In this document: positions 11,445 to 42,898 of the stretch, piece by piece
How positions within the stretch are numbered: the stretch's first letter is position 1
How the letters are laid out: every line of letters starts with the position of its first letter
DNA from: an uncultured Pelagibacteraceae bacterium
Lineage (GTDB): Bacteria; Pseudomonadota; Alphaproteobacteria; Pelagibacterales; Pelagibacteraceae
Assembly (NCBI GenBank): GCA_902613065.1
Contig: CACMFU010000002.1
Span: 1-64,000 of the forward strand
DNA: 64,000 bases
Direction of reading: 5' to 3'
The notes under the pieces: generated by a model
Databases searched by the model: none
What the model was told of the DNA's origin: nothing
What the model saw: the letters and a program-made list of their open reading frames with translations, nothing else
Translations under genes and position numbers: made by a program

Positions 11445-11456
11445 TTTAGGAAGTTA

Positions 11457-11741: not shown

Positions 11742-11798
11742 GTTAAGTCCTTAAAAAGTTAACGATTATTTATACCATATACTTTTAGAAGACAACTC

Positions 11799-26014: not shown

Positions 26015-26072
26015 AATAATAATTTTAATAAATCTTTAACATAACTGTCATAAGTATAGAGAAAGGAGTTTT

Positions 26073-26294: not shown

Positions 26295-26725
26295 TGAAAA
26301 ATATTTTATTTGTATGCACAGGAAATTCAGCGAGAAGCATTATTGCTGAGAGTATTATTAATAACGAATACTCAAATAAATTTAATGCTTTCAGTGCTGG
26401 TAGTAATCCATCTGGAAAAATCAATGAAGATGTTAAAAGTTTTTTAGAGAAAAATAAAAGTTATGATCTAACTAATTATAGTTCTAAAAACTTTGAAGAA
26501 TTTATTAATAAAGAATTAAAAATGGATCATGTAATAACAGTATGCAACAACGCAAATAATGAGGTATGTCCTATTTGGCCTGATAAAAATCAAATTATAC
26601 ACTGGGATATAGAAGATCCGGTAGCTAAACTTCAAAATGTAAATGACGAAGAAAAGCAAATAATCATTAGAAAAACTTTCAATATTATAAGTAATAAAAT
26701 TAAAGATTGGATAGATGAAAAATAA
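26294..26725 (+). CDS. arsC: low-molecular-weight-phosphatase-type arsenate reductase
   Basis: This ArsC class reduces arsenate to arsenite using a cascade of three Cys. The 143-aa protein has the phosphatase loop VCTGNSARS with catalytic Cys8. The relay pair is Cys84 and Cys92 in VCNNANNEVCP, and HWDIEDPVAKL follows. The relay spacing matches proteobacterial LMW-type ArsC rather than a plain tyrosine phosphatase. It overlaps the aquaporin gene by 11 bases, fitting an arsenite-export pair. No arsR or arsB is seen nearby. Confidence 0.9.
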   Translation: MKNILFVCTGNSARSIIAESIINNEYSNKFNAFSAGSNPSGKINEDVKSFLEKNKSYDLTNYSSKNFEEFINKELKMDHVITVCNNANNEVCPIWPDKNQIIHWDIEDPVAKLQNVNDEEKQIIIRKTFNIISNKIKDWIDEK

Positions 26726-27374
26726 AAATAGATATTTTCTTTCAGAGTTTATTGGAAGTTGCTTTCTGGTCATGATCATAGTTGGATCAGGTTTAATGGC
26801 AGAAAATCTAACTAATGATATAGCAGTAATGCTAATAGCCAACACATTGGCAACAGGAGCTGGATTGTTTGTGCTAATAACAGTATTTGCTGATGTATCT
26901 GGGGCTCATTTCAATCCATTTGTAAGTATTGCTATGACAATTACAGGAAAGTTAAAAAAAAACCTTTTACCCTTTTATATTTCTGCTCAGATACTTGGAT
27001 GTTTACTAGGTGTAGCATTAGCTAATTTCTTTTTTGAACATCAGGTTTTTGAATTATCAACAAAGTCAAGGAATGGGATTTATATTTTTACTTCTGAAAT
27101 AGTTGCTACGTTAGGTCTTATTTTAATTATTTTTGGTTCAATGAAATCAGGTAAATTAGCTGTTGCTGGATCAGTAGGCTTATATATCACTGCTGGTTAT
27201 TGGTTTACCTCTTCAACTTCTTTTGCAAATCCTGCTGTAGCAATAGCAAGAACATTTACAGAGTCGTTTACCGGTATAAGTTATTTAAACACTCCTTTTT
27301 ATATAATTGCAGAATTAATTGGTATGTTAATTGCTGTTTATATCGCAAAAAAATTATTCTTAGAAAAAGATTGA
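26715..27374 (+). CDS. aquaporin-family channel, probable arsenite exporter (AqpS-like)
   Basis: This 219-aa major intrinsic protein has six helices. The first NPA motif reads NPF (residues 67-69, AHFNPFVS) and the second is intact (ANPAVAIAR, 172-174). The residue after the second NPA is Val rather than the Arg that normally forms the selectivity filter, which suggests a wider pore. In Sinorhizobium meliloti an aquaporin with such a filter (AqpS) sits beside arsC and releases arsenite. The arsC overlap here supports the same role by inference. Confidence 0.85.
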   Translation: MKNKNRYFLSEFIGSCFLVMIIVGSGLMAENLTNDIAVMLIANTLATGAGLFVLITVFADVSGAHFNPFVSIAMTITGKLKKNLLPFYISAQILGCLLGVALANFFFEHQVFELSTKSRNGIYIFTSEIVATLGLILIIFGSMKSGKLAVAGSVGLYITAGYWFTSSTSFANPAVAIARTFTESFTGISYLNTPFYIIAELIGMLIAVYIAKKLFLEKD

Positions 27375-27859
27375 AAAATTTAAAACTAACAAACAATATT
27401 AAATTAATTAATAAAAAATTTAAAAAAAATGAATTTTATCATTTTTTAAAAACCTCAAACCTTTCAATCGTAATACCCAAAATTAAGAACAAGTATATTT
27501 TGGTTTCACAAAAAAGAATTCCTATAAATCAAATTAATTTTGAGTTTCCATCTGGTATAATTGAAAAACATGAAACAGCTTTAATATCTGCTAAAAAAGA
27601 ATTAATTGAAGAAACAGGATATAAATCAAGAAATAAATTGAGAAAAATTACTTCATTTTATTCTGAACCAGGTCGACTCACCACTAAAATTACTGGTTTT
27701 TTTTGTAATAATCTTATTAAAATTTCAAAGCCTGAAAAAGGAATAAAAATCCACATAGTTTCAGATCATCAAATAATTAAATTAATTAAGAATGGTAAAT
27801 TTAATAACGCCTCTCATATTGGTATGTTTTTGTTTTATAAAAAGAAATACGCTCAATAA
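27371..27859 (+). CDS. NUDIX hydrolase
   Basis: This is a 162-aa NUDIX protein with the box PSGIIEKHETALISAKKELIEETGY, close to GX5EX7REUXEEXGU, followed by the FYSEPGRLTTKI segment seen in ADP-ribose pyrophosphatase-like members. There is no ATG in a sensible position. The only good start is TTG at 27371, overlapping the aquaporin TGA; the ORF-track start at 27200 is a shadow inside that gene. The substrate cannot be named. The last codons lie within a hairpin that serves as terminator for the opposite strand. Confidence 0.85.
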   Translation: MKNLKLTNNIKLINKKFKKNEFYHFLKTSNLSIVIPKIKNKYILVSQKRIPINQINFEFPSGIIEKHETALISAKKELIEETGYKSRNKLRKITSFYSEPGRLTTKITGFFCNNLIKISKPEKGIKIHIVSDHQIIKLIKNGKFNNASHIGMFLFYKKKYAQ

Positions 27860-27877
27860 TAATACCGAGCGTATTTC
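27844..27877 (-). terminator. rho-independent terminator of ppk-ppx
   Basis: GAAATACGCTC and GAGCGTATTTC form a perfect 11-bp stem with a 12-base loop. On the minus strand the stem is followed by TTTTTATAAAA, so it terminates transcripts coming from ppx, whose stop is 133 bases upstream. On the plus strand no T tract follows. The left arm overlaps the stop region of the NUDIX gene. Confidence 0.85.
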
Positions 27878-28009
27878 AGGGGTTTAATGTTTACAATTTA
27901 ATCAAAGAAGAATATTACATTTGGATTAAAGATATGTTTCAATAAAATTAAAAATATATTAAAGAAGAAAAATCACTAACCTGTAAGTTGTAATAAATTA
28001 AATTATATA

Positions 28010-29521
28010 TTAATTATTTGAATAAATTACTCTTGGTTCTAAAAATAATTCTCTCGCCAGAGCTTTAAATCTTTTTGTGGCTTGTTTAGAAATTATTTCT
28101 TGGTGTTGTGCTGGAATTTTTAAAAATACAGAGTTACCTCTTTTATACAATTTAAATTCCTCTAAGAAGATAGTTGAAATAGATGTAAGTGAATGTGCAA
28201 ATCTTAAGGCTGCACCAACTTGTTTACTAGAAAAAATTTCATTATTATTTAAAAAAGTTAAATATTCTATTTTAGGGTTGTATTTAATGCTGCAGTACCT
28301 CCAATAACATGAAAGAGCTATTTGAATTCTTTCTTTATGTGAAAGTCTCAATAATGGAGTATTTAATGTTTCTTGAAAAACTAATTCTGCTTTTTGAAAA
28401 GCACCAAGTCCCCAATCCATATGACTTAAAACACAAGCTAAATTAAGCAATTTTTCATCAAAATGTTCATTACCATCAAATACAGGTTTGATAAATTCAT
28501 GATACTTTTTGTAGGTTAATCCCAAATCACCTCTCTTCTTCGAAATATATTCTAATGATTTTTCAAAAACTTGAGAGTTATCAATATTTTTAAAGTAATC
28601 TTTTGCTAGAGATCCCTCTCTAATACCGCTTATGGAACATATTATGTTTTTTGGATTTGTTGCTCTCATGATCTCATCTAAAATTATAGAGCTATATGGT
28701 AGATAAGGTGTTCTAGATTTAGATATATATTCAACTGTTTTTAGTTTTGCTTTATTGAACGATGCTATTTTTTCTATAAATGTTGATAAAGTTTCATAAT
28801 TTACTGAATACTGATGGATTATGTGGACAGGGTGTTTATTTTGAAAAAGATGAAGTTTAAATAAAGCTCTCCATGTTCCGCCAACTAAATAAAGATTTTC
28901 AAATTTTTTTTTAGATAACCATTTTTCATCTCTCAAAAGTTTTTTTATATATTTAGAAAGGTTTCTCTTTTTTACAATTGGATTATTAATTAATCTTAAA
29001 ACACCTAAGGGTAAAGATGTTTTATTAGTGATCAAACCATTTTCAACTCGAGCTAATTCTAAACTACCTCCACCAAGATCAGCAACTAACCCATCTACAT
29101 TATCAAATCCAATTTTTACACCTTCTGCTGAACAAATTGCTTCTTCCTCTCCACTTAAGATTTCTATTTTTTTCTTAAAAAGATTTTCTACGTATTCAAC
29201 AAATGGTTTTGCATCAGTTGCTTCTCTTAAAACTGCAGTTGCTATTATTTTTAAATTAGAAATTTTAGAAACATTTAAAATCTCTGAAAATCTCTTCAAT
29301 ACTTTTTGAGCATAATCAACACCAGACTTATGAAGTTTTCTTGACTTATCTAAATTTTTACCAAGTTCACAAACAGCTTTTTCATTGAAAAAAGGCACAC
29401 GAGAAGAGCTAAAATCTTCATAAATTAGCATCCTAATAGAATTAGAGCCTATATCAATAACTGCTAATTTAGCAGGTTTTAATTTTAAATTTTGTTTATT
29501 TTTAAAAACTTTAATTTCCAC
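28010..29521 (-). CDS. ppx: exopolyphosphatase / GppA family phosphatase
   Basis: Ppx releases phosphate from polyphosphate chains; the family also includes pppGpp phosphatases. The 503-aa protein has the actin-like ATPase fold with AVIDIGSNSIRMLIYE near residue 20, AVLREATDA, ILSGEEEAICS, and the phosphate loop LVADLGGGSLELARV. A C-terminal helical HD-like region follows. It overlaps ppk by 11 bases, so synthesis and breakdown of polyphosphate are co-transcribed. Confidence 0.95.
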   Translation of the reverse strand: MEIKVFKNKQNLKLKPAKLAVIDIGSNSIRMLIYEDFSSSRVPFFNEKAVCELGKNLDKSRKLHKSGVDYAQKVLKRFSEILNVSKISNLKIIATAVLREATDAKPFVEYVENLFKKKIEILSGEEEAICSAEGVKIGFDNVDGLVADLGGGSLELARVENGLITNKTSLPLGVLRLINNPIVKKRNLSKYIKKLLRDEKWLSKKKFENLYLVGGTWRALFKLHLFQNKHPVHIIHQYSVNYETLSTFIEKIASFNKAKLKTVEYISKSRTPYLPYSSIILDEIMRATNPKNIICSISGIREGSLAKDYFKNIDNSQVFEKSLEYISKKRGDLGLTYKKYHEFIKPVFDGNEHFDEKLLNLACVLSHMDWGLGAFQKAELVFQETLNTPLLRLSHKERIQIALSCYWRYCSIKYNPKIEYLTFLNNNEIFSSKQVGAALRFAHSLTSISTIFLEEFKLYKRGNSVFLKIPAQHQEIISKQATKRFKALARELFLEPRVIYSNN

Positions 29522-31661
29522 TTTTAATAAGTCTTAAGTTTAATTTTTTCGGTTTCATTTTTAATTTAGCTTTACCTCTTCCAGATAAACTAGGATTATT
29601 CATAAAATAATCATGGGCTGAAAAAGAATCATTTTCACTATATTTAATTTTTGTATAATTTCCACTAGCATCAAGTTCCCAACTTTGTTTTTTATCTAAA
29701 TAATTAGCTAACATAATTTGATCAAGAACTTGTTCGTGGACTGTTTGGTTTTCAATTGGAACTAGAAGTTCTACTCTTCGATTTAAATTTCTTGGCATTA
29801 AATCTGCTGATGAAATAAAAACTTTTGCATCTCTACTAGGCATTGTTTTTCCATTTGCAAAACAATAAATTCTTGAGTGTTCCAAAAATCTTCCAATCAT
29901 GCTTTTAACTATTATATTTTCAGATTTATCTTTAACTCCAGGTCTTAAACAACAAACACCTCTTACAAATAAAAATATCTTTACTCCAGCATTTGAAGCT
30001 TCGTAAAATTTATCAATTATCGCTGGGTCTACTAAGGAATTCATTTTGGCCCATATTTCACCTTTTTTACCTTTTTTGACATTTGTTATCTCGTTAGCAA
30101 TACATTTGTTCAAGGTTTCCCTAAGATTAATTGGTGATATAGATATTTTACTAAGATTTCGTGGTTTTGAATAACCAGTTACATAATTAAAAAATTTTTC
30201 CACATCAGTTGCTATTTTTTTATCAGAGCTAAATAAAGATAAGTCAGTATAAATTTTTGCATTAACTGGGTGATAATTACCAGTTCCCAGATGTATATAA
30301 GTTTGAATTTTTCCCTGCTCTTTTCTTAATATTAAAGATGATTTTGCATGTGTTTTATATTTTGCAAAACCATAAACTATTTGAATTCCTGCATTTTCTA
30401 AACTTCTTGAAAGTTGAATGTTTGCTTCTTCATCAAATCTTGCTTTGATCTCTATTAAAGCGGTTACTGTCTTTCCATTTTCAGCTGCTGTTATTAAGGC
30501 TTTAACAATTGGAGAATCTAGCGTTGTTCTGTATAGAGTTTGTTTAATTGCTATAACTTTTTTATCATATGCAGCTTGATTTAAAAACTCAACGACAGCA
30601 TCAAATGTTTCAAAAGGGTGATGAACTATTAAATCTTTTTTTCTTATAGTATCAAAAAAATTATTATTAAACTCCTTTAATCTCTCAACCTCCCTGGGAT
30701 TAAAATTTTTAAATCTTAATTTAGAATTTTTAATTTTACAAACTTGGTCTATATCTTGAATTCCAACAATGCCTTCAATTTCATAGATGTATTCAGATTT
30801 TACGTTTAACTTATTGGTTATAAACTTAATTAAGTCATTATTACTATTTTTCAAAATTTCTAAACGTACTATGTCACCTGTTCTTCTTCTTTTTAATGCC
30901 AATTCAAAAGATCTTACTAAATCTTCGGCCTCCTCTTGAATTTCTACATCGCTATCTCTTATAACTCTAAATAACATTTTTTTATCTAAATCATGATCAG
31001 GAAATATTTCAGAAGCAAAAAAACTTATAACATCATCTATAATTAAAAATTTTTTAAAACTTTTATTTCCATCTATTTCAATAAATCTTGATAAAGCTTT
31101 TGGAATTACTATTATTGCATTTAAAGTCCTTTTTTTATTTTTCTTATTTAATCTCATAACTAATGCTCTTCCTTGATTTGCAATAAATGGAAAGGGATGA
31201 GCTGGGTCTATTGCTGATGGGGTTAGCAGAGGGTAAATTTCTTCATTAAAAATTTTAAATAATTTTTTTTGTTCAGTTTTACTTAAATTTTCAGGTTTAA
31301 CTATACTTATATTTGCTTTTTTTAATTGAAGAATTAAATCTCTAAATATTTTATTTTGTTTATTAAGAAGATTATTTGTTTCCAAAATAACTTCACTCAT
31401 TTGTTCATCAGGAGTAAGACCATCAGAACTAAGTGAATCTACATCTTGTTTGATTTGACTATATAAACCTGCAACACGAACCATGAAAAATTCATCTAAA
31501 TTTGATCCAGCTATAGATAAAAATTTAATTCTTTCATAAAGAGGATTTTCAAAATTTTGGGCCTCAAGAAGAACTCTGTCGTTGAATTTTAGCCAAGACA
31601 GCTCTCTATTTATGTATTTAGATTTTAGTGTTTCTTTATCTTGTTTTTTTAATGCAGTCAT
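29511..31661 (-). CDS. ppk: polyphosphate kinase 1
   Basis: Ppk1 reversibly transfers the gamma-phosphate of ATP to polyphosphate. The 716-aa protein begins with the family N-terminal NRELSWLKFNDRVLLEAQ. It has PHPFPFIANQGRAL, the catalytic-His region YGFAKYKTHAKSSLILR, and HLGTGNYHPVNAKIYTDLS. The start is 13 bases from the divergent sixA-like gene. The location next to phoB/pst fits phosphate storage. Confidence 0.97.
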   Translation of the reverse strand: MTALKKQDKETLKSKYINRELSWLKFNDRVLLEAQNFENPLYERIKFLSIAGSNLDEFFMVRVAGLYSQIKQDVDSLSSDGLTPDEQMSEVILETNNLLNKQNKIFRDLILQLKKANISIVKPENLSKTEQKKLFKIFNEEIYPLLTPSAIDPAHPFPFIANQGRALVMRLNKKNKKRTLNAIIVIPKALSRFIEIDGNKSFKKFLIIDDVISFFASEIFPDHDLDKKMLFRVIRDSDVEIQEEAEDLVRSFELALKRRRTGDIVRLEILKNSNNDLIKFITNKLNVKSEYIYEIEGIVGIQDIDQVCKIKNSKLRFKNFNPREVERLKEFNNNFFDTIRKKDLIVHHPFETFDAVVEFLNQAAYDKKVIAIKQTLYRTTLDSPIVKALITAAENGKTVTALIEIKARFDEEANIQLSRSLENAGIQIVYGFAKYKTHAKSSLILRKEQGKIQTYIHLGTGNYHPVNAKIYTDLSLFSSDKKIATDVEKFFNYVTGYSKPRNLSKISISPINLRETLNKCIANEITNVKKGKKGEIWAKMNSLVDPAIIDKFYEASNAGVKIFLFVRGVCCLRPGVKDKSENIIVKSMIGRFLEHSRIYCFANGKTMPSRDAKVFISSADLMPRNLNRRVELLVPIENQTVHEQVLDQIMLANYLDKKQSWELDASGNYTKIKYSENDSFSAHDYFMNNPSLSGRGKAKLKMKPKKLNLRLIKSGN

Positions 31662-31674
31662 ATATTTAAAATTT

Positions 31675-32199
31675 ATGCTTAAATTATACGTTATGCGTCA
31701 TGCAAAATCTAGCTGGGACCACCCAAATCTTGATGATCATGAAAGACCATTAAGTAAGCGTGGCGAGAAAAATGCAAAAAAGATTTGTGAATTTTTTGTT
31801 AAAAACAATTATAAGTTTGATTACATATTACTTTCATCATCAAAAAGAACAAAGAAAACCCTAAAAATTTTATTAAAAAAAATAGATAAACCAAAAAAAA
31901 TTATTTCTTCAAAAAAATTATACTTATCAAGTGAAGATAAAATTATAGATATAATAAAAAAAATACCAAAAAAATATAAATCAGTGCTTTTAATTAACCA
32001 TGAACCTACTGTTAGAAATCTAATACGATCACTGACAAAAAATCACAACAACAACCATTTTAAATTATTAAACTACAAATTTCCGACATCGGCATTTGCA
32101 AAAATTTATTTTGATTTTAATGAATGGAATAAATTAGATGGAAATGGTTTAATTAAAGAATTTACTAGACCTAAAGACCTTCAAGATTCTAAAGAATAA
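31675..32199 (+). CDS. SixA-type histidine phosphatase
   Basis: From the ATG at 31675 this is a 174-aa phosphohistidine phosphatase-like protein. It has the RHG-type motif YVMRHAKSSWDHP near the N-terminus, DHERPLSKRGEKNA, SSSKRTKKT and the second catalytic His in INHEPTVRNLI. The ORF-track start (31582) extends antisense into ppk and is not credible. Only 13 bases separate it from the ppk start, so its promoter must lie within ppk. Its end overlaps the phoB end by 19 bases. SixA proteins dephosphorylate phosphotransfer domains, but the target here is unknown. Confidence 0.88.
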   Translation: MLKLYVMRHAKSSWDHPNLDDHERPLSKRGEKNAKKICEFFVKNNYKFDYILLSSSKRTKKTLKILLKKIDKPKKIISSKKLYLSSEDKIIDIIKKIPKKYKSVLLINHEPTVRNLIRSLTKNHNNNHFKLLNYKFPTSAFAKIYFDFNEWNKLDGNGLIKEFTRPKDLQDSKE

Positions 32200-32864
32200 C
32201 CTGCTGATCTTACAGTTCTAATTAAAGGCTTAGTATTATCTATATTAATAGCCTGTCTTAATCTTCTGATATGCACATCGACAGTTCTAGTTTCAACGTA
32301 AATATTTTCTCCCCAAACATTGTTTAAGAGTTGTTCTCTTGAATATACCCTTTTTGGATTTTTGATAAAAAAATCTAATAATTTAAATTCTGTAGGTCCT
32401 AGAGATATTTCAATGTTATTTCTATAAACTCTTTTTGTTATTCTATCTATTTTTAGATCTGTAAACTCAACAACATCAAAGGTGGATTGTGGTTTTGATC
32501 TTCTGAGTAAAGATTTAATTCTTGCATTAAGTTCTTTTTGACTAAATGGTTTTGTTACATAATCATCTGCACCTGTATCAAAAGCTCTTAATTTGTCCTC
32601 CTCCTCGCCTTTTGCTGTTAACATTATTACTGGTATGTCATTATGCTTTTTGTCTTTTTTTAAATTTTTACATATTTCAACGCCTGACAAATCGGGCAAC
32701 ATCCAATCCATTAATATTAAGTCAGGAAGCTTATCTTTAATTTGTTTAAGCGCATCTTCACCATTTTCACAGAAACTTACTTTGTAACCTTCTTTTTCAA
32801 GGTTATACTTTAGTAGAGTTATTATAGCAGCCTCGTCCTCAGCTATAAAAATGTGAGCCGACAT
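32181..32864 (-). CDS. phoB: phosphate regulon response regulator PhoB
   Basis: PhoB activates the Pho regulon when phosphorylated by PhoR. The 227-aa protein has a receiver domain with phospho-acceptor Asp53 (LMDWMLPD) and Lys105 (VTKPFS). The OmpR-type winged helix follows, with LGPTEFKLLDFFIKNPKRVYSREQLL and VDVHIRRLRQAI. It is the last gene of the pstSCAB-phoU-phoB series. phoR is not adjacent but lies about 6 kb away upstream of pstS on the same strand. Confidence 0.96.
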   Translation of the reverse strand: MSAHIFIAEDEAAIITLLKYNLEKEGYKVSFCENGEDALKQIKDKLPDLILMDWMLPDLSGVEICKNLKKDKKHNDIPVIMLTAKGEEEDKLRAFDTGADDYVTKPFSQKELNARIKSLLRRSKPQSTFDVVEFTDLKIDRITKRVYRNNIEISLGPTEFKLLDFFIKNPKRVYSREQLLNNVWGENIYVETRTVDVHIRRLRQAINIDNTKPLIRTVRSAGYSLES

Positions 32865-32867: not shown

Positions 32868-33575
32868 TTACTTTTCTCCAGTAACAATAGGTTCTGTGCC
32901 TTTTGGTCGATCACCCTCTAGATATTCTCCCTTAACTAAATAATATACTTGCTCAGCAATGTTGGTTGTATGATCACCTATTCTCTCTATATTTTTAGTT
33001 ACAAATAATAAGTGGGTTCCATCACTTAAGTTATTTTCGTTATCTTTTAAATATCTAATCACTTCTTGCATGCATAAATTTGTTAAATCATCAATTTGTT
33101 CGTCGCTTTCCCATACATTAATTGCCATACTCGAAGATCTTTCTAAATATGCATCTAATATTGATTTCAATTGTTTTTGAGCATCCGAAGATACTCTTAT
33201 AATAGCATCTACTAAATTTTTTGGTAAATTTTCATTTAACAAAAGAGTTCTTTTAGAAATATTTTTTGCTAAATCACCTATTCTCTCAAGGTCAGAAGAT
33301 ATCTTTAAAGCAGTGACTGTTTCTCTAAGATCTATGGCCATAGGTTGTCTTAAAGCAATTAAATTTACTACTTGCTGTTCAATTAAAGTCTCAAATTTAT
33401 CAATTTTTTCATCATCTTTAATTACTGCCTCAGCATTATCACTATTTCTTGTAGTAATTGCTTGAATAGCTTTACCCAAAGCTTCTTCACAAAATCCGCC
33501 CATTTTAATTATATTGCTATTTAAATTTTTAAGTTCTTCTTCGTAAGACTTTACTGTATGTGGTGCTTCGGTCAT
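32868..33575 (-). CDS. phoU: phosphate transport system regulator PhoU
   Basis: PhoU links the Pst transporter to PhoR and keeps the Pho regulon off when phosphate is ample. The 235-aa protein is built of two similar three-helix repeats with the E/D-containing metal motifs DLRETVTALKISSDLERIGDLAKNI and VTKNIERIGDHTTNIAEQV. It shares one base with pstB and is 3 bases upstream of phoB. Confidence 0.96.
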   Translation of the reverse strand: MTEAPHTVKSYEEELKNLNSNIIKMGGFCEEALGKAIQAITTRNSDNAEAVIKDDEKIDKFETLIEQQVVNLIALRQPMAIDLRETVTALKISSDLERIGDLAKNISKRTLLLNENLPKNLVDAIIRVSSDAQKQLKSILDAYLERSSSMAINVWESDEQIDDLTNLCMQEVIRYLKDNENNLSDGTHLLFVTKNIERIGDHTTNIAEQVYYLVKGEYLEGDRPKGTEPIVTGEK

Positions 33576-34330
33576 TATCCAAACCTCCCTGTGATATAAT
33601 CCTGAGTTTTTTTGTTTTCTGGATTCTTAAATATTTTATCAGTAGAACCATGTTCTATCAATTCTCCAAGGTGAAAAAAACCTGTATTTTGAGAAACTCT
33701 TGCAGCTTGTGCCATTGAGTGAGTGACTATTATAATAGTATGGTCTTTTTTTAACTCATCAATTAGTTCTTCTATTTGAGCTGTAGCAATAGGATCTAAA
33801 GCAGAACAAGGCTCGTCCATTAGAATAACTTCAGGTTTAACTGAAATTGCCCTTGCTATACATAATCTTTGTTGTTGACCACCAGACAAACCAGTACCTG
33901 GTTCATGAAGTCTATCTTTCACCTCTTCCCATAATGCTGCCTTTTTTAAGCTAGTTTCAACTATTTCATCCATTTCATTCTTTGATTGAGCCATACCATG
34001 AATTGTTGGACCATAAGAAATATTTTCATAAATAGTTTTAGGAAAAGGATTTGGTTTTTGAAAAACCATACCAATTTTTTCTCTTAATCTAACAACATCA
34101 CAACTTTTATCATTGATATCAAAATCATTAATTATAATCTGCCCTTTTACTCTACATATATCAATAACGTCATTCATTCGGTTTAGACATCTTAAATAAG
34201 TAGATTTACCACAACCTGAAGGACCAATTAATGCAGTAACTTGATTTTCTTCAATATCTAAATTTATATTGAATAGAGCTTGTTTTTTTCCATAGTAAAC
34301 ATCTACATTTTTTGAATTTATCTTTATCAT
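33575..34330 (-). CDS. pstB: phosphate ABC transporter ATP-binding protein
   Basis: PstB powers phosphate import. The protein has Walker [12 protein letters not shown]-loop [16 protein letters not shown], signature [14 protein letters not shown], Walker [13 protein letters not shown] and switch VTHSM. The ORF track begins at 34351. I prefer ATG 34330 (MIKINSKN, 251 aa) because a GGAG sits 5 bases before it, it follows the pstA stop closely, and its length fits the family. The longer start would overlap pstA by 20 bases. Confidence 0.95.
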
Positions 34331-34331
34331 C

Positions 34332-35600
34332 TTAACTCCATTTTTTTTCAAATTTATGTCTAATTATTTGTGCAAATAAGTTCATTATAATTAAAAATCC
34401 TAATAGAACCATAATACAAGCAGAAACTTTCTCGACAAAACCTCTTTCAGCGCTCTCTGCCCAAATATAAATTTGCACTGGCAAACTTGCAGCTGGATCT
34501 AAAGGAGATCCTGGTATTGTATTTACAAAAGCCACCATGCCAATCAATATCAAAGGTGCGGTTTCGCCTAAAGCTTGGGCCAAACCAATTATTGTACCGG
34601 ATAAAGTCCCTGGCATAGATAACGGAACTGTATGATGCATTGTAGTTTGCATTTTACTAGCACCCATTGCAAGTGCTGCCTCTCTTATACTTGGAGGAAC
34701 TGCTTTTAAAGATGCTCTACAAGCAATAATAATTGTTGGTAAAGTCATCAACGATAAAGTTATTCCACCGACTAGAGGTGTTGACCTAGGTAATTGAAAT
34801 ACAGCAAGTAAAATACCCAGTCCTAAAAGACCAAAAACAATTGAAGGTACTGCTGCTAAATTATTTATATTTACCTCAATAAAATCAGTAAATCTGTTTT
34901 TAGGAGCAAATTCCTCTAAATAAATAGCTGCTAGAACTGCTACAGGAAAAGCTATCATTAAACAAACAAGTATAGAAAATATTGATCCCATAAATGAACT
35001 TGCTATACCAGCTAATTCAGCTTCTCTTGAATCAGGATATGTAAAAAAACTTAAATTGAATTTACTTTCAACTTTTCCTAGTTCTACAAGTTGATCAAAA
35101 ATCTTTAATTGATAATCCGTAACTCTTCTTTGATCTTCAGGTAAATCTCTTGGATAATTGCCTTTAAATACTTGATCTAAATCATCTGAGGCAGTTAAAT
35201 AAACATCTTTAGTTTTTCCAATTAATGAAGGGTCGTTTAAAAGTTCCCTTTTAATCTCTCTTTCGAAAAAGTAAGAGACCATTCTCTTCAGCTCATTTTC
35301 TTGATCCTCATTAGCATTTGGATCCAAATCAGCCATTGATTTTAATGCTATATCGTAATAATCAGCATCTTTTAAATCCTCTTTAGAAGGATTTTGCTCT
35401 AACATCATTAATTCAGCATCAAAAGTAACTGGAACAATAAGCCAAGTTTTTTGAAAGGCTGAATAGCCTGTCGAAAAAATTTTAAAAATAAAGATTGTTA
35501 AAAATAAAAGTGCCATAAAAATTGCACTTTGACCGTATAATCGAAATCTCTTTTCAGCTTTATATCTTTTATTTAATAATTGTTCTTTATTTTTATTCAT
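34332..35600 (-). CDS. pstA: phosphate ABC transporter permease PstA
   Basis: PstA is one of the two membrane subunits of the phosphate importer. The 422-aa protein has an early helix, a periplasmic insert of about 150 residues (about 60-200), and a C-terminal permease domain with [24 protein letters not shown] as the EAA coupling loop. The long N-terminal insert is usual for the alphaproteobacterial form. It overlaps pstC by 8 bases. Confidence 0.95.
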
Positions 35601-36978
35601 ATTTTTCTCTATATTTTTTAACTACTCTTAAGGCCACAATATTCAAACAGAGCGTTACTAAAAATAATGACATACCTAAAGCAAATGCAGCTTGCGTTTT
35701 TGGGTCGCCAAAAGCTTGATCTCCAATTAATATTACAACAATTTGCGCTGTAATTGTTGAAGTAGATTCTAATGGATTTAAAGTTAAATTAGCAGCTAAA
35801 CCAGAGGCCATAACAACTATCATTGTTTCTCCAATTGCTCTTGAAACACCAAGCAAAATAGATCCAACTATACCAGGCAATGCTGCAGGAAAAATAACTT
35901 TTTTTATTGTTTCTGATTTGGTTGCTCCCATGGCATAACTTCCATCTCTTAAACTTTGAGGTACACTTGTAATCACATCGTCACTTAAACTTGAAATGAA
36001 TGGTATAATCATAATGCCCATTACTCCGCCTGCCGCTAAAGCGCTTTCAGCTGAAACGTCTAAACCCATGCTATTACCTATTTCCTTTAAAAAAGGTCCA
36101 ACTGTTAGAGCAGCAAAAAATCCATAAACAACTGTTGGTATACCAGCTAAAATTTCAATTAAAGGTTTTGCGTATTGTCTAACTTTAACTGATGCATACT
36201 CAGCCAAATAAATTCCACTCATTAGTCCAATAGGAATAGCAACACACATAGCTATGAAAGCAATAAAAAAGGTACCAGCAAAAATAGGGACTGCTCCAAA
36301 AGTATCGGAGTACATTGTCGGATCTAAAGCCTCTGAAGAATCTCTAACAAAAGCTTTTGCAGGATACCAATGAGTTCCAAAGACAAAATCAAATAATGGA
36401 ATTACTTTAAAAAAATCTATAGTTTGAAATATAAGTGAAAATACTATTCCAACAGTAGTTAATATTGCAGCTAAAGAAGCTGTAAATAAAACTGCTTTCA
36501 AAAATTTTTCAACTGGTTCCCTTGTTCTAGAATTAGATGAAATTTTTTTATAAGCGTAAGCAACAGAGGCAATAATTATAGATAATACTATAACAGCTTT
36601 TGAACTTTGAGCTATTGATCGAAGACTTAAATATTTTTCAGCTGAAGCCTCAATAAAAGGTGTAATTTCTCCGGTAAATTGTCCTCGAGACAATGCTTTT
36701 GTTTTTTCGTAAATTAAATTTAATTCATCATCAAGATAGCCTTGATTTGAATAATCACTTAAGATTAATAATTTTACAATTGTGGGCTCAAAAATTGCCC
36801 ATAAAGAAAAAATTATAAAAGCTGGTATTGCACACCAAATTGCAAGATAATAACCATAAAATTGTGGTAATGCAGTTAATCTTTTATTTGTAGATTGAAT
36901 TGTATAAGCTTTTCTACGTCCAAAATAATAACTTGTGAAACCCAGAAGAACAATAAATGTAAACAATATTAAGTTCAA
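35593..36978 (-). CDS. pstC: phosphate ABC transporter permease PstC
   Basis: PstC pairs with PstA in the membrane. The 461-aa protein has several N-terminal helices and a periplasmic insert, then the permease domain. Its coupling loop reads SVPQSLRDGSYAMGATKSETI, and SRAIGETMIVVMASG is in a later helix. It is separated from pstS by 91 bases holding a terminator hairpin, so it is probably transcribed at a lower level than pstS. Confidence 0.95.
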   Translation of the reverse strand: MNLILFTFIVLLGFTSYYFGRRKAYTIQSTNKRLTALPQFYGYYLAIWCAIPAFIIFSLWAIFEPTIVKLLILSDYSNQGYLDDELNLIYEKTKALSRGQFTGEITPFIEASAEKYLSLRSIAQSSKAVIVLSIIIASVAYAYKKISSNSRTREPVEKFLKAVLFTASLAAILTTVGIVFSLIFQTIDFFKVIPLFDFVFGTHWYPAKAFVRDSSEALDPTMYSDTFGAVPIFAGTFFIAFIAMCVAIPIGLMSGIYLAEYASVKVRQYAKPLIEILAGIPTVVYGFFAALTVGPFLKEIGNSMGLDVSAESALAAGGVMGIMIIPFISSLSDDVITSVPQSLRDGSYAMGATKSETIKKVIFPAALPGIVGSILLGVSRAIGETMIVVMASGLAANLTLNPLESTSTITAQIVVILIGDQAFGDPKTQAAFALGMSLFLVTLCLNIVALRVVKKYREKYE

Positions 36979-37013: not shown

Positions 37014-37040
37014 AAAAAAAAGGGGTCTAAAAAGACCCCT
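37014..37040 (-). terminator. terminator/attenuator between pstS and pstC
   Basis: AGGGGTCT and AGACCCCT form an 8-bp GC-rich stem with a 4-base loop. On the minus strand the stem is followed by TTTTTTT. It lies 30 bases after the pstS stop and before pstC, fitting partial read-through with higher expression of the binding protein. Flanking A/T tracts on both sides could extend the stem. Confidence 0.85.
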
Positions 37041-37069
37041 TTTTTAATTATTTGTTAACAGAGTAATAA

Positions 37070-38101
37070 TTAATTACCCATAGCAACTAGCTTCGTAGCA
37101 TTAGTTCTAGTTGTTTTATACAATTTAGAGTCTAATGGAACTAAACCAATATCTGCTAAGTAACCACCTTTTCCAATAGCTTTCTTAGTTGTGAATTCTT
37201 TCACAAACTCATGTAATCCTGGGATTACTCCAACGTGAGCTTTTTTCACATAGAAAAATAATGGTCTTGCAACTGCATAACTGTAGTCTTGAATACTCGC
37301 TAGAGAGGGTTGTCCACCATCTATGCTAGCAGCTTGTAATTTATCTTTAGCAGCTAAGAAATAGCTGAAACCAAAGAAACCAAACATATCTTTATCTTGA
37401 GTTAACTTTTGGATGATTAAACTATCGTTTTCTCCTACTTCAATAGCAGCTCCATCTTCTCTGTAAAGTTTTTGTGGTTTTTTGTATTTTTTATTTCCAG
37501 CCTCATAACCAGCTTTATAAAGAGCTTTAGCTTCTTTAGTCATACCTTTTTTCATTACTAAAGAATTCCAAGCATCTCTAGTTCCTGATGTTCCTGGTGG
37601 GATCATTACTGAAATTTTTTGTTTTGGTAAGCTAGGGTCAATTTGGTCCCAAGTTTTATAAATATTTGGAACTAACTTACCATCAACTACTGTATGAGCA
37701 GCTAATGCTAAATATAATTGTTCTTTAGTAAAGTTTACTGGTTTTGCATCTTTGCTGTAAGCTAATGTAATACCATCGTTACCAATTACGATCTCAACAA
37801 TATCATTTACACCATTTTTCTTACATAGGGCTTTCTCTTTGTCTTTCATAGCTCTTGATGCATTTGTAATATCTGGATGTTGCTCACCAACACCAGCACA
37901 GAATAGTTTAGCTCCTCCACCAGTACCAGTCGACTCGATTACAGGAGTTTTGAATCCTGAACCACCAAATCTTTCAGCAACAACAGTCGCGTAAGGGAAT
38001 ACTGTAGACGAACCAACTATCTTAATTTGATCTCTTGCTTGAGCAACAGTTGCTATTGATAGAGCAACTAAAGAAGCAATCACTATAGTTAGTTTTTTCA
38101 T
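37070..38101 (-). CDS. pstS: phosphate-binding protein PstS
   Basis: PstS binds phosphate in the periplasm and passes it to PstCAB. The 343-aa protein has a signal peptide (residues 1-22, cut after AQA). It has the phosphate-loop regions IKIVGSSTVFPYATVVAE and ESTGTGGGAKLFCAG, and SVMIPPGTSGTRDAWNS in the second lobe. A Pho box lies 71-88 bases upstream, and a terminator follows the gene, so it should be strongly induced by phosphate starvation. Confidence 0.96.
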   Translation of the reverse strand: MKKLTIVIASLVALSIATVAQARDQIKIVGSSTVFPYATVVAERFGGSGFKTPVIESTGTGGGAKLFCAGVGEQHPDITNASRAMKDKEKALCKKNGVNDIVEIVIGNDGITLAYSKDAKPVNFTKEQLYLALAAHTVVDGKLVPNIYKTWDQIDPSLPKQKISVMIPPGTSGTRDAWNSLVMKKGMTKEAKALYKAGYEAGNKKYKKPQKLYREDGAAIEVGENDSLIIQKLTQDKDMFGFFGFSYFLAAKDKLQAASIDGGQPSLASIQDYSYAVARPLFFYVKKAHVGVIPGLHEFVKEFTTKKAIGKGGYLADIGLVPLDSKLYKTTRTNATKLVAMGN

Positions 38102-38171
38102 TATCTTTAATCCTTTCGTTATTTATTAATTAAAAGATGCCTGACTCGTATAAATTTATTGAATCTTTAAT

Positions 38172-38189
38172 ATTACAGAATTATTACAG
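38172..38189 (-). promoter_or_regulatory. Pho box of pstS
   Basis: On the minus strand the sequence reads CTGTAAT-AATT-CTGTAAT, two identical 7-mers spaced by 11 as in the PhoB operator (CTGTCAT-AWAW-CTGTCAT). It lies 71-88 bases upstream of the pstS start, in the gap before the unknown exported gene, and points toward pstS. Confidence 0.9.
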
Positions 38190-38210
38190 TTTTGTTAAAA
38201 ACCTAACTTT

Positions 38211-38819
38211 TTAGTTGTATTTCATTGAGACAATAATCTCACTATTTTCAGTTTCTAGACCACCTTTGCATGAAACTGGATTTACGTTATCCTTAAAAGC
38301 AAGATCTGGGGTTGGTCTTAAGACAACTTCCAGTTTTACCAAATTAACTAATTCCTCAAGAACACTTTGGTCATAACGCCATTTTGGCCAACTAGTAGGA
38401 GTAGAAAAAATAGATGTTAAATAGCTTGTCGCCATAGTAAACCTATAATTACTCATATTTTCATTTCTCAGTAAATGATCTCTAACAGAATTAAATATGT
38501 TTCGACATCTCAATGAATCTGACATGTAGTTCTCTTTTTTTAAATTTTCATTTACTGGAATTGAAACAATTAAATCTACTGTATTTCTCCAATAGGAACT
38601 GAGAACATCTATATATATATCTTCGTATGGTACATCTTTATGTTTTTTTATTTCAGGATATGCACTTTTTAAGTCTTCCTGTAATCTAAAGATACCAATA
38701 TCAAAAACAGTTAATTGCTGGTTTCTTAAAATTGTAGAAATATCAGATGCATTACTTTTAGTAATGATCGACATTAAAAAAAAAATAATAATTAAAATAC
38801 TATGTAATATCTTAATCAT
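38211..38819 (-). CDS. exported protein of unknown function in the pho locus
   Basis: I do not recognise this 202-aa protein. It has a signal peptide (about residues 1-25, ending SNA before SDIS) and no other membrane helix, so it is probably periplasmic or surface-exposed. The mature part is mixed alpha/beta-looking, with two Cys (in LRCRNIF and PVSCKGG) and the motif-like stretches SSYWRNTVDLIVSIPV and PTSWPKWRYDQS. It lies between phoR and pstS, on the same strand, with the pstS Pho box just downstream of its stop. Location suggests a phosphate-related role, but function is unknown. Confidence 0.85.
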   Translation of the reverse strand: MIKILHSILIIIFFLMSIITKSNASDISTILRNQQLTVFDIGIFRLQEDLKSAYPEIKKHKDVPYEDIYIDVLSSYWRNTVDLIVSIPVNENLKKENYMSDSLRCRNIFNSVRDHLLRNENMSNYRFTMATSYLTSIFSTPTSWPKWRYDQSVLEELVNLVKLEVVLRPTPDLAFKDNVNPVSCKGGLETENSEIIVSMKYN

Positions 38820-38913: not shown

Positions 38914-40062
38914 TTATTTTGTTGGAAGATATATCTTAATTTCAGTACCTTCATTAACTTTACTGAGAATCTCATAGTCACCTCTGTGTTGAGATATAAT
39001 ATGTTTCATTATAGCTAAACCTAAACCTGTACCACCAACCTTTTTACTTTTTTCTGTATCTACTCTAAAAAATCTCTCAGTTATTCTTGGAATTAGCTGG
39101 TGAGGTATTCCGACACCTTCATCTTTAATGCTAATGGCAATATTTTTATCAATTAATTTACCTTCACTATTTTGACTTTTTACGTATATATTTTTTCCAT
39201 CTTGTGAATATTTAATTGAATTATCAATTAAATTTGAAAATACAGTTAACAATTTATCATTATCACCAAAAACTAAGGTTGGTTCCATAAGTTCAATATG
39301 TAAATTGATTTTCTTTTTTTTAAGAATTAATTCAAAGTTACTTTTAATATTTGTAAAAAGATCATTTAAGCTCACAATTTTATTAGGCTTGATATGTTCT
39401 TCCAATTCAATTCTACTTAAAATCAATAAATCATTGATTAGGTTTTCCATTCTTAATACTTGATCAGACATGATAGACATAAATTTTTTTTGCGCCTCTT
39501 GGTCTTTTGAAGCTGGTCCAAGAATAGTTTCTAAAGAACCTTTAATCGAAACTAAAGGTGTTCTTAATTCATGACTCACATTTGCAACAAAATCAGTTTT
39601 TAGTTTTTGTGCTTTTGTTATTTCTGTAAAATCTTTTAGAAACAATACGACAGAGTTTATTTCTGGAAACAAATAGGTCGGACCAGGAATAACATAGATT
39701 TTGTAAAGTTGATAAGATGGTAAATTTATTTCTACATTGACATTTTTTGTAGTTTGATCTTTGATAGCCTCTTCAATCGTTTCTAATAATTTTGTATCTC
39801 TTATTACACTTGAAATATTTTTATCAATTAAGTTTTCTCCAAAACGTTGTTTTGCACTTTTGTTTAGATATTTGATTAAATTATATTTATCTAAAGCAAA
39901 GAATTGATCTTCTAATTCTTCAATAATTACTCTTTTTCCTAAATCATCCTTATTGGTCTTATTTACAACTGGAGCTGTATTTTCTGGCTTAATATTTTTT
40001 TTAAATAAAAAATATAATAAAATAATTATTACAACTATGAGTATCAACTCTGTCCAAAACAT
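38914..40062 (-). CDS. phoR: phosphate regulon sensor kinase PhoR
   Basis: PhoR phosphorylates PhoB when Pst/PhoU signal phosphate shortage. The 382-aa protein has one short N-terminal helix (about residues 4-20), a PAS-like region (about 45-145), the HisKA box FVANVSHELRTPL with His164, and a HATPase domain with NLIDNSIKYS, DEGVGIP and GTGLGLAIMKH. There is no periplasmic sensing domain, as usual for PhoR. It is 34 bases after agt, so phoR is likely expressed with plcP-agt rather than next to phoB. Confidence 0.94.
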   Translation of the reverse strand: MFWTELILIVVIIILLYFLFKKNIKPENTAPVVNKTNKDDLGKRVIIEELEDQFFALDKYNLIKYLNKSAKQRFGENLIDKNISSVIRDTKLLETIEEAIKDQTTKNVNVEINLPSYQLYKIYVIPGPTYLFPEINSVVLFLKDFTEITKAQKLKTDFVANVSHELRTPLVSIKGSLETILGPASKDQEAQKKFMSIMSDQVLRMENLINDLLILSRIELEEHIKPNKIVSLNDLFTNIKSNFELILKKKKINLHIELMEPTLVFGDNDKLLTVFSNLIDNSIKYSQDGKNIYVKSQNSEGKLIDKNIAISIKDEGVGIPHQLIPRITERFFRVDTEKSKKVGGTGLGLAIMKHIISQHRGDYEILSKVNEGTEIKIYLPTK

Positions 40063-40096
40063 GGATATGTTTTAACAAATGTAATGAATATTGTCT

Positions 40097-41104
40097 TTAA
40101 TAATTAGGTGAAATATTTTCAAAAAATATTTTTGCTGTTTCTTCCCATGAATATTTTTTTGCAAAATCAAGACAATCTTGGCGACTTACCTTCAAAGCTT
40201 TTAAAGCAGAAGCCTTCAAATCATCATCTAAAGTATCAATATTAGTACCCCCTAATATATCTTTAGGTCCCGGCACAGGGTAAGCTGCAACTGGTGTACC
40301 ACAATTTAATGATTCCAAAACAACAATACCAAATGTATCAGTTTTACTAGGAAAAACAAAAACGTCTGATGATGCAAAATGAGATGCTAATTCTCCATTA
40401 GTCTTTTCACCTAAAAAAATATCATTTGGATATTTTTTTTTCAAATTGTTTAGGTCTGGACCTTTTCCAATAATAACTTTAGTACCTTCAAGATCGAGAT
40501 CTAAAAATGCTTTAATATTTTTTTCAACTGCAATCCTACCAACATATATCCATATAGGTCTTTTATAAGGTAAGTCTCTCTTAATGGGGTTTTTAAACGC
40601 GCCATGATTACCTCCCCTGGTCCATGTAACCATTTTATTGTTATCAATACCTAAAGAAATTAACTCTTCACGCATGGATTCTGTTGTCACTAAAATTCTT
40701 TCAGCTTTATTATGAAAATTGCATAAAAATTTTTCTGACCATTTAGCTGGAATGATAGGCATATAAAGTTTCATGTATTTATCAAATCTTGTGTGAAAAC
40801 TTGTGGTAAATTTTAAGCCATTTTTAATGCAATGTCTTCGTGCCATAAACCCTAAGGGTCCTTCTGTTGCAATATGTATTGCATCAGGTTTAATTGAATT
40901 AATTAAATTACTTACACGGGGCCAAACATTTAAGGACAATCTAATTTCATTATATTTTGGCATTGGCACGGTAAGAAATTGTTGAGGAGTAATATATTCA
41001 ATAGTTTGACCTTGTGACTTAAGAATTTCACCAGTTTCGTGGAGAGTTCTTACAACACCATTAACTTGAGGGTAATAAGCATCGGTAACAATTAATATTT
41101 TCAT
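40097..41104 (-). CDS. agt: GT4-type glycosyltransferase (Agt-like, glycolipid synthesis)
   Basis: This 335-aa GT-B glycosyltransferase has the N-terminal KILIVTDAYYPQVNGVVRTLHETGEIL, the linker region IWVYVGRIAVEKNIKAF, and the donor-binding motif FPSKTDTFGIVVLESLNCGTP. It lies 3 bases after the plcP-like gene. In SAR11 and other marine bacteria an adjacent PlcP-Agt pair converts phospholipids to mono- or glucuronosyl-diacylglycerols during phosphate starvation. The role here is inferred from that context; a mannosyltransferase role cannot be excluded by sequence. Confidence 0.85.
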   Translation of the reverse strand: MKILIVTDAYYPQVNGVVRTLHETGEILKSQGQTIEYITPQQFLTVPMPKYNEIRLSLNVWPRVSNLINSIKPDAIHIATEGPLGFMARRHCIKNGLKFTTSFHTRFDKYMKLYMPIIPAKWSEKFLCNFHNKAERILVTTESMREELISLGIDNNKMVTWTRGGNHGAFKNPIKRDLPYKRPIWIYVGRIAVEKNIKAFLDLDLEGTKVIIGKGPDLNNLKKKYPNDIFLGEKTNGELASHFASSDVFVFPSKTDTFGIVVLESLNCGTPVAAYPVPGPKDILGGTNIDTLDDDLKASALKALKVSRQDCLDFAKKYSWEETAKIFFENISPNY

Positions 41105-41107
41105 TCT

Positions 41108-41914
41108 TTAAGATGCTTTTTTGAATGAACCGATCCTGTTATTATCAATATTTTCTGAAATATATTCGTTTCTTTTTTTATCCCAATAAATTATCTCAAA
41201 AGTTCCATCATATTTTTCTGCCAAGGCTGTACATGACTCAACCCAATCGCCACAATTTAAATAATTAACACCATCAAGATTTAAATTTTCAGCATGATGT
41301 ATGTGTCCACAAATTATTCCATCAAATTTTTTCCTTTTTGCATATGAAGAAAGTGTGTTTTCATATTCACCTATAAATTTTACAGCATTTTTTACCTTAT
41401 ATTTTAAAAATTTTGCTAATGACCAATAGTCTTTACCTCTCAATTTTCTAAAAAAATTTATAATAACATTAATTTTAAGTAATAATTCATAGGCAATGGC
41501 TCCTAATTTAGAAAGCCATTTAGCATATTTCATTACTCCATCCCAAGCATCACCATGAACAACTAAATATTTTTTTCCTAACTGCGTTTCATGAATAACT
41601 CTATTTACTATTTTAATATCACCTAAATGCATTGGAATAAATTTTCTAAATATCTCATCATGATTTCCAATTATGTAAAATACTTTTGTCCCGTGCCTGG
41701 CTTTTCTCAATATTTTTTGTATGACATCATTATGCTCTTGAGGCCAATAGAAATTCTTTTGCATTGCCCAAACATCGATTATATCTCCAACTAAATAAAG
41801 GTTCTCGGATCTTGAATTCTTAAAAAATTCTAAAAGCTTGTTAGCTTGACAACCTTTGGTACCAAGATGCACATCAGATATAAATATACTCTTATATTTT
41901 AATAACGGAGGCAT
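41108..41914 (-). CDS. plcP: PlcP-like metallophosphatase (phospholipase C type)
   Basis: This 268-aa calcineurin-like metallophosphoesterase has the five metal motifs: FISDVHLGTKG, LVGDIIDVW, IIGNHDE, VVHGDAWDG and ICGHIHHAE. It resembles LpxH-family UDP-diacylglucosamine hydrolases. The PlcP branch, however, cleaves phospholipid head groups to give diacylglycerol, and the direct coupling to a glycosyltransferase and phoR favours PlcP. The ATG is 14 bases from a Pho-box-like element in the gap shared with dgk. Confidence 0.86.
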   Translation of the reverse strand: MPPLLKYKSIFISDVHLGTKGCQANKLLEFFKNSRSENLYLVGDIIDVWAMQKNFYWPQEHNDVIQKILRKARHGTKVFYIIGNHDEIFRKFIPMHLGDIKIVNRVIHETQLGKKYLVVHGDAWDGVMKYAKWLSKLGAIAYELLLKINVIINFFRKLRGKDYWSLAKFLKYKVKNAVKFIGEYENTLSSYAKRKKFDGIICGHIHHAENLNLDGVNYLNCGDWVESCTALAEKYDGTFEIIYWDKKRNEYISENIDNNRIGSFKKAS

Positions 41915-41928
41915 TAAAAAAACCTATT

Positions 41929-41946
41929 TTGTAACACAACTGTAAC
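41929..41946 (+). promoter_or_regulatory. Pho box between plcP and dgk
   Basis: The plus strand reads TTGTAAC-ACAA-CTGTAAC, two near-identical 7-mers at an 11-base period, close to the pstS element. Orientation points to dgk (start 68 bases downstream). It is only 14 bases from the plcP start, so its effect on plcP would need a promoter on the far side of the gap. Confidence 0.75.
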
Positions 41947-41964
41947 TCGAATCATTTAATTCTT

Positions 41965-41982
41965 ATGTCATTGAAATGTTAA
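41965..41982 (+). promoter_or_regulatory. second, weaker Pho-box candidate
   Basis: ATGTCAT-TGAA-ATGTTAA repeats at an 11-base period 36 bases after the first element, and is followed by an AT-rich stretch suitable for a -10 region before dgk. Match quality is moderate in this AT-rich background. Confidence 0.45.
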
Positions 41983-42013
41983 AGATTTATTAAAAATTAG
42001 TTACGAAAAAATT

Positions 42014-42898
42014 ATGCATTATTGTTTGATTTATAACCTTAATTCTTCAACAGGGAAAAAAATAAAATTTGTAAATAAGATTTATGAAAAATTAAAAATT
42101 AACAACTCTGTAGATTATTTCAAAACTAAATCTGAAAAAGAGGCGAAAGAAATATTTTTGGAATTTAAAAATAAAAATTATGATAGATTGATAGTTGCTG
42201 GTGGAGATGGATCAGTATCATTTGCAATCAATGAATTGATAAAAAATGACTTTGATTTTAATGATAAATTTGCAATTGGGTATATACCAGCTGGAACAGC
42301 CAATTTACTTCAAGCAGAGTTATCGATAAATAAAAAAGTAGATGATATTTGTAATATTTTAACATCAAATAACTATAAACAATCTAATCTTATAAAAATA
42401 AATAAAAATTATTTTTTTTTAATGGCTGGTATTGGTTGGGATGCTAAAATTGTTCACTCTATTGATACACGTATAAAAAAAATACTTGGTAAGATAATAT
42501 TTGGTTTAAAAGGGTTTCAGCATTTTTTATTTATGAAAAATAATAAACTTGATGTTTTCTTTGATGGTCAAAAACATCAAGCTGATTGGATATTAAGTTC
42601 TAATACCAAATATTATGCTGGTCATCATAAGATAAATAAGTCAAACATTTTTGATGATAGATTAATAACTTATGTCTTTAAAGATTTAAGTAGGCTAAAA
42701 CTAATGTATTATATTATTTTGATAATTATTTATGGAGATTTATCAAGAAACAAATCTGTTATAACTACCTATTCAAAAAGTATCCAAATTAATTGCAATA
42801 ATTTTGAAATTCCCGTTCAGGTTGATGGAGATAATTTTGGATGTCACAATAAGATTGATATTGAATTTTCAAAAAAAAAAGTAAATTTTTTACTATAA
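42014..42898 (+). CDS. diacylglycerol kinase-family lipid kinase
   Basis: This 294-aa protein belongs to the DAGK catalytic family (YegS/DgkB-type). It has the nucleotide loop LIVAGGDGSVSFAIN, the GTAN motif in YIPAGTANLLQ and a C-terminal beta domain ending PVQVDGDNFG. It is divergent from plcP with Pho-box-like repeats in the gap. A kinase that turns diacylglycerol into phosphatidate would recycle PlcP product, so it fits the lipid-remodelling set. A sphingoid or other lipid substrate is not excluded. Confidence 0.9.
   Translation: MHYCLIYNLNSSTGKKIKFVNKIYEKLKINNSVDYFKTKSEKEAKEIFLEFKNKNYDRLIVAGGDGSVSFAINELIKNDFDFNDKFAIGYIPAGTANLLQAELSINKKVDDICNILTSNNYKQSNLIKINKNYFFLMAGIGWDAKIVHSIDTRIKKILGKIIFGLKGFQHFLFMKNNKLDVFFDGQKHQADWILSSNTKYYAGHHKINKSNIFDDRLITYVFKDLSRLKLMYYIILIIIYGDLSRNKSVITTYSKSIQINCNNFEIPVQVDGDNFGCHNKIDIEFSKKKVNFLL

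Follow-up and report, generated by a model that had tools for sequence, protein, structure and literature searches.

A putative phosphate-controlled lipid-remodelling module in SAR11 bacteria

No group of heterotrophs in the surface ocean is more abundant than the SAR11 bacteria, and the substitution of their membrane lipids alters their phosphorus need. The locus considered here, which would serve such a substitution, lies in a 64,000-nucleotide stretch of DNA from an uncultured Pelagibacteraceae bacterium (contig CACMFU010000002.1, positions 1 to 64,000; hereafter the window), where putative genes for a phospholipase C-type phosphatase (plcP), a diacylglycerol (DAG) glycosyltransferase (agt) and a phosphate sensor kinase (phoR) follow one another, and where a lipid kinase gene (dgk) diverges from them. 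Among the closest described systems, the plcP-agt pair of 'Ca. Pelagibacter' HTCC7211 (the 'type 2' context of Sebastian 2016; GTcp of Wei 2021) encodes both enzymes in the order seen here. Control by a Pho box has been proposed for that pair, and both of its genes are backed by expression and complementation: agt expressed in E. coli yields glycosyl-DAG as well as glucuronosyl-DAG, and plcP complements a plcP mutant (PMC4796936; PMC8231724). In their accessible parts, the HTCC7211 texts do not discuss a phoR gene behind agt, a divergent kinase with a Pho box, or an alternative island in plcP-less strains. The kinase, phosphatase and glycosyltransferase genes were also listed earlier as SAR11 genes restricted to HTCC7211, and as enriched at the Bermuda Atlantic Time-series Study (BATS) site in the Sargasso Sea (PMC3686209).

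Two described islands come close to the one in the window. The HIMB59 island fGIp-C has nearly the same genes, namely DGK, 'LpxH', 'RfaG', PhoR, PstSCAB-PhoU, PhoB, SixA, ppk, ppx, WzB, GlpF and alkaline phosphatase, the last of which the window lacks; in the accessible part of that paper, plcP and agt are called LpxH and RfaG, and no lipid remodelling is proposed (PMC10734472). In the SAR11 gMED and gWID islands, pstSCAB-phoU and phoBR occupy the same island position with less than 60% identity between genomospecies; the study describing them stresses phosphonate genes, does not use the word 'lipid' in its main text and, in its accessible part, leaves undiscussed the change in the upstream neighbour of phoR (PMC7318151). 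Earlier publications thus already cover the enzymes, the Pho control over them and the island (PMC4796936, PMC8231724, PMC10734472, PMC7318151). As far as the accessible literature shows, what is new here is the two-state upstream context of phoR, the strict linkage between the kinase and plcP, the two-sided Pho-box region, and a scar of agt preserved in some relatives.

Gene order and Pho boxes in the window

The four genes were called as open reading frames (ORFs), and the Pfam domains of their products all score over the cut-off: dgk on the plus strand (42014-42898; PF00781, 9.3e-23) and, on the minus strand, plcP (41108-41914; Metallophos PF00149, 2e-12), agt (40097-41104; Glyco_transf_4 and Glycos_transf_1) and phoR (38914-40062; HisKA and HATPase_c). 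The initial annotation had described a metallophosphatase, a GT4 glycosyltransferase and phoR as consecutive, with a DAGK-family kinase diverging across a gap with PhoB-like repeats, and this layout is confirmed: plcP and agt are 3 bases apart (41105-41107), agt and phoR 34 bases (40063-40096), and the 99 bases between dgk and plcP (41915-42013) hold repeats that exceed chance and face both ways. From plcP, the minus-strand order runs unbroken through agt, phoR, orf202, pstS, pstC, pstA, pstB and phoU to phoB, the part from orf202 to phoB extending from 38819 down to 32181, and phoB lies about 6 kb downstream of phoR within this run. The genome, of 1.27 Mb in 37 contigs and 95% complete, holds a single plcP. 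The locus resembles the E. coli Pho regulon in its 11-bp direct-repeat Pho boxes, its PhoR/PhoB pair and its Pst-PhoU system; phoB and phoR are adjacent in E. coli, whereas in the window phoR comes after the lipid-remodelling genes, and it is the pst operon that ends with phoB.

Pho boxes were sought by scanning the window with a weight matrix of 11-bp units trained solely on the pstS boxes of other genomes, the control being 60 shuffles of the 64 kb that preserved its dinucleotide composition. The best three three-unit sites were found upstream of pstS (38169-38201, minus strand; 33.9 bits, a training-like positive control), facing plcP (41975-42007, minus strand, TTCGTAACTAA TTTTTAATAAA TCTTTAACATT; 25.3 bits, 0 in 60 shuffles), and before a short operon that includes genes resembling those of an arsenate reductase and an aquaporin (arsC-aqpS; 26022-26054, plus strand; unreached in 60 shuffles), the latter two being independent of the training. 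The repeat TGTAAC-N5-TGTAAC that faces dgk (41930-41946, plus strand) is weak by the matrix (10.5 bits) and matches TGTAACACAACTGTAAC perfectly; mismatch-free TGTAAY-N5-TGTAAY occurs only twice in the 64 kb, once there and once upstream of pstS. The plcP-facing box is kept even in diverged relatives. No terminator-like site was detected on the minus strand from plcP to pstS, and no Pho box precedes phoR, its gap to agt included.

Comparison across relatives

The comparison covered a genus sample of 120 genomes, each at least 80% complete. Both dgk and plcP are present in 54 of them, 53 being in common; a single genome has plcP alone and another dgk alone, and both cases lie at contig ends (Fisher p = 6.7e-32, a value inflated by relatedness, although the pattern holds down to 81% plcP identity). 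In addition, DAGK_cat is absent from two complete plcP-less genomes. This co-occurrence supports the earlier proposal that the kinase is part of the remodelling module.

Of the 54 plcP genomes, 51 have a phoR of the same type as the window (58-100% identity) and none has the other type (41-47% identity), which occurs in 15 plcP-less genomes. At the same site beside valS-ilvD-manC, the place of this island is taken in plcP-less genomes by another Pho island (type I, the window's being type II) in the order phoR-pstSCAB-phoU-phoB, in which PstS, PstC and PstA share 60-67% and PstB about 80% identity with their counterparts in the window; this split agrees with the pst-phoBR divergence at one island position reported in PMC7318151. 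The type I phoR lies directly behind manC or eamA, both housekeeping genes, and no Pho box precedes it in eight of the nine cases examined, one being present in the ninth; Pho-box matches inside manC of several relatives were set aside as a likely coding coincidence. The gene ahead of phoR is thus a housekeeping gene where plcP is missing, whereas genomes with plcP have a unit under Pho-box control there, and this contrast lends real support to the idea that sensing and lipid change are coupled. Where plcP and phoR stand on the same contig and can be scored, the distance between them fits one gene (agt) in 46 of 49 contigs; it is longer in the other three, with the ornithine lipid synthesis genes olsBA inside in both that were examined (G101, G109).

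Taken together, these data point, with a probability that we put at about 0.78, to a SAR11 phosphate-starvation membrane-remodelling module at the head of a flexible Pho island, consisting of a plcP-agt-phoR unit driven by phosphorylated PhoB (PhoB-P) and of the divergent kinase. In the circuit that we infer, low phosphate would lead PhoB-P to bind the 11-bp repeats of the 99-bp divergent region and to induce the co-transcribed plcP-agt-phoR in one direction and dgk in the opposite one, while the genes from pstS to phoU-phoB would be driven from a Pho box of their own. PlcP would strip the phosphorylated head group from phospholipids to give DAG, to which Agt would add glucose or glucuronate, yielding phosphorus-free lipids, and the kinase would turn surplus DAG back into phosphatidate, thereby preventing DAG build-up and making recovery possible. 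Because phoR would be read behind plcP-agt, the sensor would be made together with the effectors, giving a feedback loop.

Substrate of the kinase and expression of phoR

Several observations weigh against parts of this module, some of them bearing on the kinase and others on phoR. The kinase, filed in the DAGK_cat family as a soluble enzyme of the YegS-BmrU-DgkB type, is the product of the sole DAGK_cat gene in the genome; its GGDG motif reads GGDGS and is conserved among aligned homologues, whereas the C-terminal DGE of S. aureus DgkB is replaced by DGD, a conservative change seen in 14 of 14 aligned homologues. In addition, the dgk-facing box, kept in most of the genus and its main clades, is absent in a diverged clade (L074/L086), and no DAGK_cat match was found in five genomes of a second family of the order, all of which have plcP with agt behind it, so that the kinase is not essential to the remodelling chemistry. 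The DgkB/YegS family has varied substrates, YegS being reported to phosphorylate phosphatidylglycerol, and with the altered motif and the kinase-free genomes of the other family this leaves some room for a kinase that phosphorylates a lipid other than DAG. We regard such a substrate as possible but doubtful, since the closest structure by sequence is that of a DAG kinase, S. aureus DgkB (2qv7, 8.4e-19), and the gene is strictly linked to that of a DAG-generating enzyme.

As for phoR, its product finds its best similarity in the PhoR/PnpS models (PnpS, 8.3e-86; phoR_proteo, 9.5e-85) but stays under the curated PhoR cut-offs (284.5 against 334.2 bits and 288.4 against 400 bits); the name is supported by the linkage to pst-phoU-phoB, and the gene probably encodes a PhoR-type sensor kinase of island type II. 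The 34-base gap in front of it could hold a weak phoR promoter, and the junction with agt is not kept everywhere. In relatives L114, L115, L075, L078 and L080, olsB-olsA lie on the opposite strand between agt and phoR, with a Pho box of olsB's own in the short gap shared with phoR in L114, L115 and L075; in some relatives a larger olsBA-phn island parts the two genes. The separation shows that the agt-phoR coupling is dispensable and has been undone in some lineages. In the second family, plcP-agt are followed by sixA in the opposite orientation and then by ppk-ppx-phoR-pst, ppk-ppx thus standing between agt and phoR. A search for OlsB in the window's own genome found none, and an inverted arrangement with a truncated phoR, seen in two contigs of equal length (L013, L124), was discounted because it probably represents an amplification chimera.

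The order of these events can be read from a scar. In three genomes where phoR lies away from agt (L128-L130), phoR is still preceded by the same 37-base spacer and by a remnant of 31 codons from the 3' end of agt; in the L071 genome this remnant shares a contig with the intact agt, about 17 kb away. Because remnant and spacer still precede phoR, they show directly that agt and phoR were joined before the olsBA-phn island split their junction.

In the light of these comparisons, the claim that phoR is tied to plcP-agt instead of phoB has to be dropped: pstSCAB, phoU and phoB trail phoR on the same strand, and phoR heads the pst-phoU-phoB run in plcP-less relatives too. The broader idea of a coupling between phoR and the remodelling enzymes holds in part: a Pho-box-bearing plcP-agt unit precedes phoR in most scorable contigs, but the arrangement is neither universal nor obligatory, being split by olsBA, olsBA-phn or ppk-ppx in some relatives. 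One could argue that plcP-agt and dgk form a module while phoR has a constitutive promoter of its own, the adjacency reflecting island assembly and no regulatory coupling; phoR stands first in the pst run whichever the island type, its separation from agt is tolerated, and promoter-like matches are abundant in AT-rich DNA. This seems rather unlikely given the short agt-phoR gap without a terminator, the lack of a Pho box of phoR's own, and the order kept in the 46 contigs; moreover, where olsBA parts phoR from agt, phoR still shares its gap with the Pho box facing olsB. Co-expression of phoR with plcP-agt is therefore the preferred reading.

Identity of PlcP and Agt

The assignment of plcP was decided by curated cut-offs and motifs. 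Its product belongs to the calcineurin-like superfamily, with the metal-ligand motifs DVH, GD, GNHD, HGD and GHIH present and conserved. As the initial annotation had proposed, it was scored against LpxH models and missed both cut-offs (TIGR01854, 42.3 bits for 190.35; PRK05340, 48.8 bits for 134), and it shows GNHD where aligned LpxH structures show GNRD. Lipid A is probably made in this genome, since LpxC is present; yet LpxI is present as well (LpxI_C, 107.8 bits, over the cut-off) and can do the LpxH step, so that LpxH activity is not needed from the phosphatase. A lipid A role of the phosphatase, which had been named as what would overturn the remodelling proposal, is thus not what these data indicate. 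The coupling to a synthase of non-phosphorus lipids right behind plcP and the Pho box upstream fit a PlcP-type enzyme, an identity that appears well supported. Among wider relatives, plasmid-borne ones are annotated as UDP-2,3-diacylglucosamine diphosphatase, and a Sphingomonas one also has a family 1 glycosyltransferase directly after it. The GT4 enzyme is identical to the characterised SAR11 GTcp at 15 of 15 positions examined, the numbering being the same, and the catalytic dyad His104-Asp256 and the donor and acceptor residues are present; its identification as a GTcp-like DAG glycosyltransferase, Agt, appears equally well supported, in keeping with the PlcP/Agt identity first suggested.

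That the two genes would instead be lipid A or lipopolysaccharide genes, an LpxH and an RfaG-like glycosyltransferase as named in the accessible part of the HIMB59 paper (PMC10734472), is very improbable and was rejected: LpxH enzymes are the best named relatives of the phosphatase, public annotation follows them and LpxC attests to lipid A synthesis, but against this stand the missed cut-offs, the GNHD motif, the presence of LpxI, the Pho box, the GTcp residues of Agt and the patchy distribution of plcP, a gene that roughly half of the sampled genomes of the genus lack and that is hence too dispensable for lipid A.

Other genes and elements of the Pho island

Between phoR and pstS (37070-38101, minus strand) lies orf202 (38211-38819, minus strand), a conserved protein gene with a signal peptide, which is present in type II islands and was not detected in type I. 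Its product has no Pfam or NCBIfam match, and its predicted structure, of fair confidence (pLDDT 82.9), has no fold match in the PDB. The genes pstC-pstA-pstB (33575-36978), phoU (32868-33575) and phoB (32181-32864, the last of the run, with receiver and winged-helix domains) follow on the minus strand, all recognised from their translations. A GC-rich hairpin with a T-run (GGGGTC...GACCCC, 37016-37045) between pstS and pstC possibly lowers read-through into pstCAB-phoU-phoB. Past phoB come a plus-strand sixA-like phosphohistidine phosphatase gene (31681-32199, start approximate), recognised from its translation and standing at the same position in relatives, and the minus-strand polyphosphate genes ppk-ppx of the same island (28010-31661; polyphosphate kinase 1 over the cut-off, ppx by translation).

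Further along, positions 27845-27965 (minus strand) hold five Pho-box-like units and a terminator, and the same elements flank an intact phoX (10948-12864) in relative L132. A phoX gene was not found in the genome of the window; the element is a probable phoX deletion scar, and what is left of it could give rise to a short RNA that responds to phosphate. The region 26022-27374 (plus strand) comprises, behind the three-unit Pho box mentioned above, a 73-aa membrane ORF, a gene resembling low-molecular-weight protein tyrosine phosphatases and arsenate reductases, and a MIP channel gene. It looks like a Pho-controlled arsenate-detoxification operon, relatives of this gene set adjoin both island types, and genes of this kind are probably what the HIMB59 paper calls WzB and GlpF.

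Phage-borne plcP-agt

A plcP gene is also found in Pelagibacter phage Mosig EXVC030M, an isolate (MT647606.1; L135), at 5995-6732 and divergent from pstS. A scan of IMG/VR for plcP gave 109 stretches; the 80 best among them (L138-L217) were analysed along with Mosig. An agt homologue follows plcP in about 45 of the 80 viral contigs, mostly with an overlap of about 19 bases. The GNHD-type motif is kept in all 81 PlcP sequences; near-full-length viral Agt has His104, Arg190 and Lys195 in 43 of 43 cases and Asp256 in 40 of 43. Pho-box-like tandems occur within 120 bases upstream of viral plcP in 32 of the 80 contigs, many of them near-identical, compared with 7 of 414 other upstream regions of the same contigs, and phage replication or coat genes adjoin the cassette in L149, L172, L153 and L213. 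The viral pair is thus a possible lipid-remodelling cassette, and a limited literature search, which is no proof of novelty, found no paper on it. More tentatively, and with somewhat less than even confidence, plcP-agt may be a mobile PhoB-controlled cassette common to SAR11 Pho islands and phages, which in SAR11 would have seized the promoter position ahead of phoR and turned a housekeeping-driven sensor into a feedback sensor; the many aquatic phages with the same pair, in which Pho-box-like repeats often precede it, may remodel the membranes of the phosphate-starved hosts that they infect.

Significance for SAR11 biology

The comparison suggests that the HIMB59-island genes published as lpxH and rfaG are lipid-remodelling genes, and with plcP-agt borne by phages, lipid remodelling would count among viral traits. 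If phoR is indeed made from the remodelling promoter, the bacterium would possess a phosphate-response circuit, with sensor feedback, unlike that of close relatives whose phoR stands behind housekeeping genes, and measurable differences in the threshold and memory of the phosphate response would be predicted between them.

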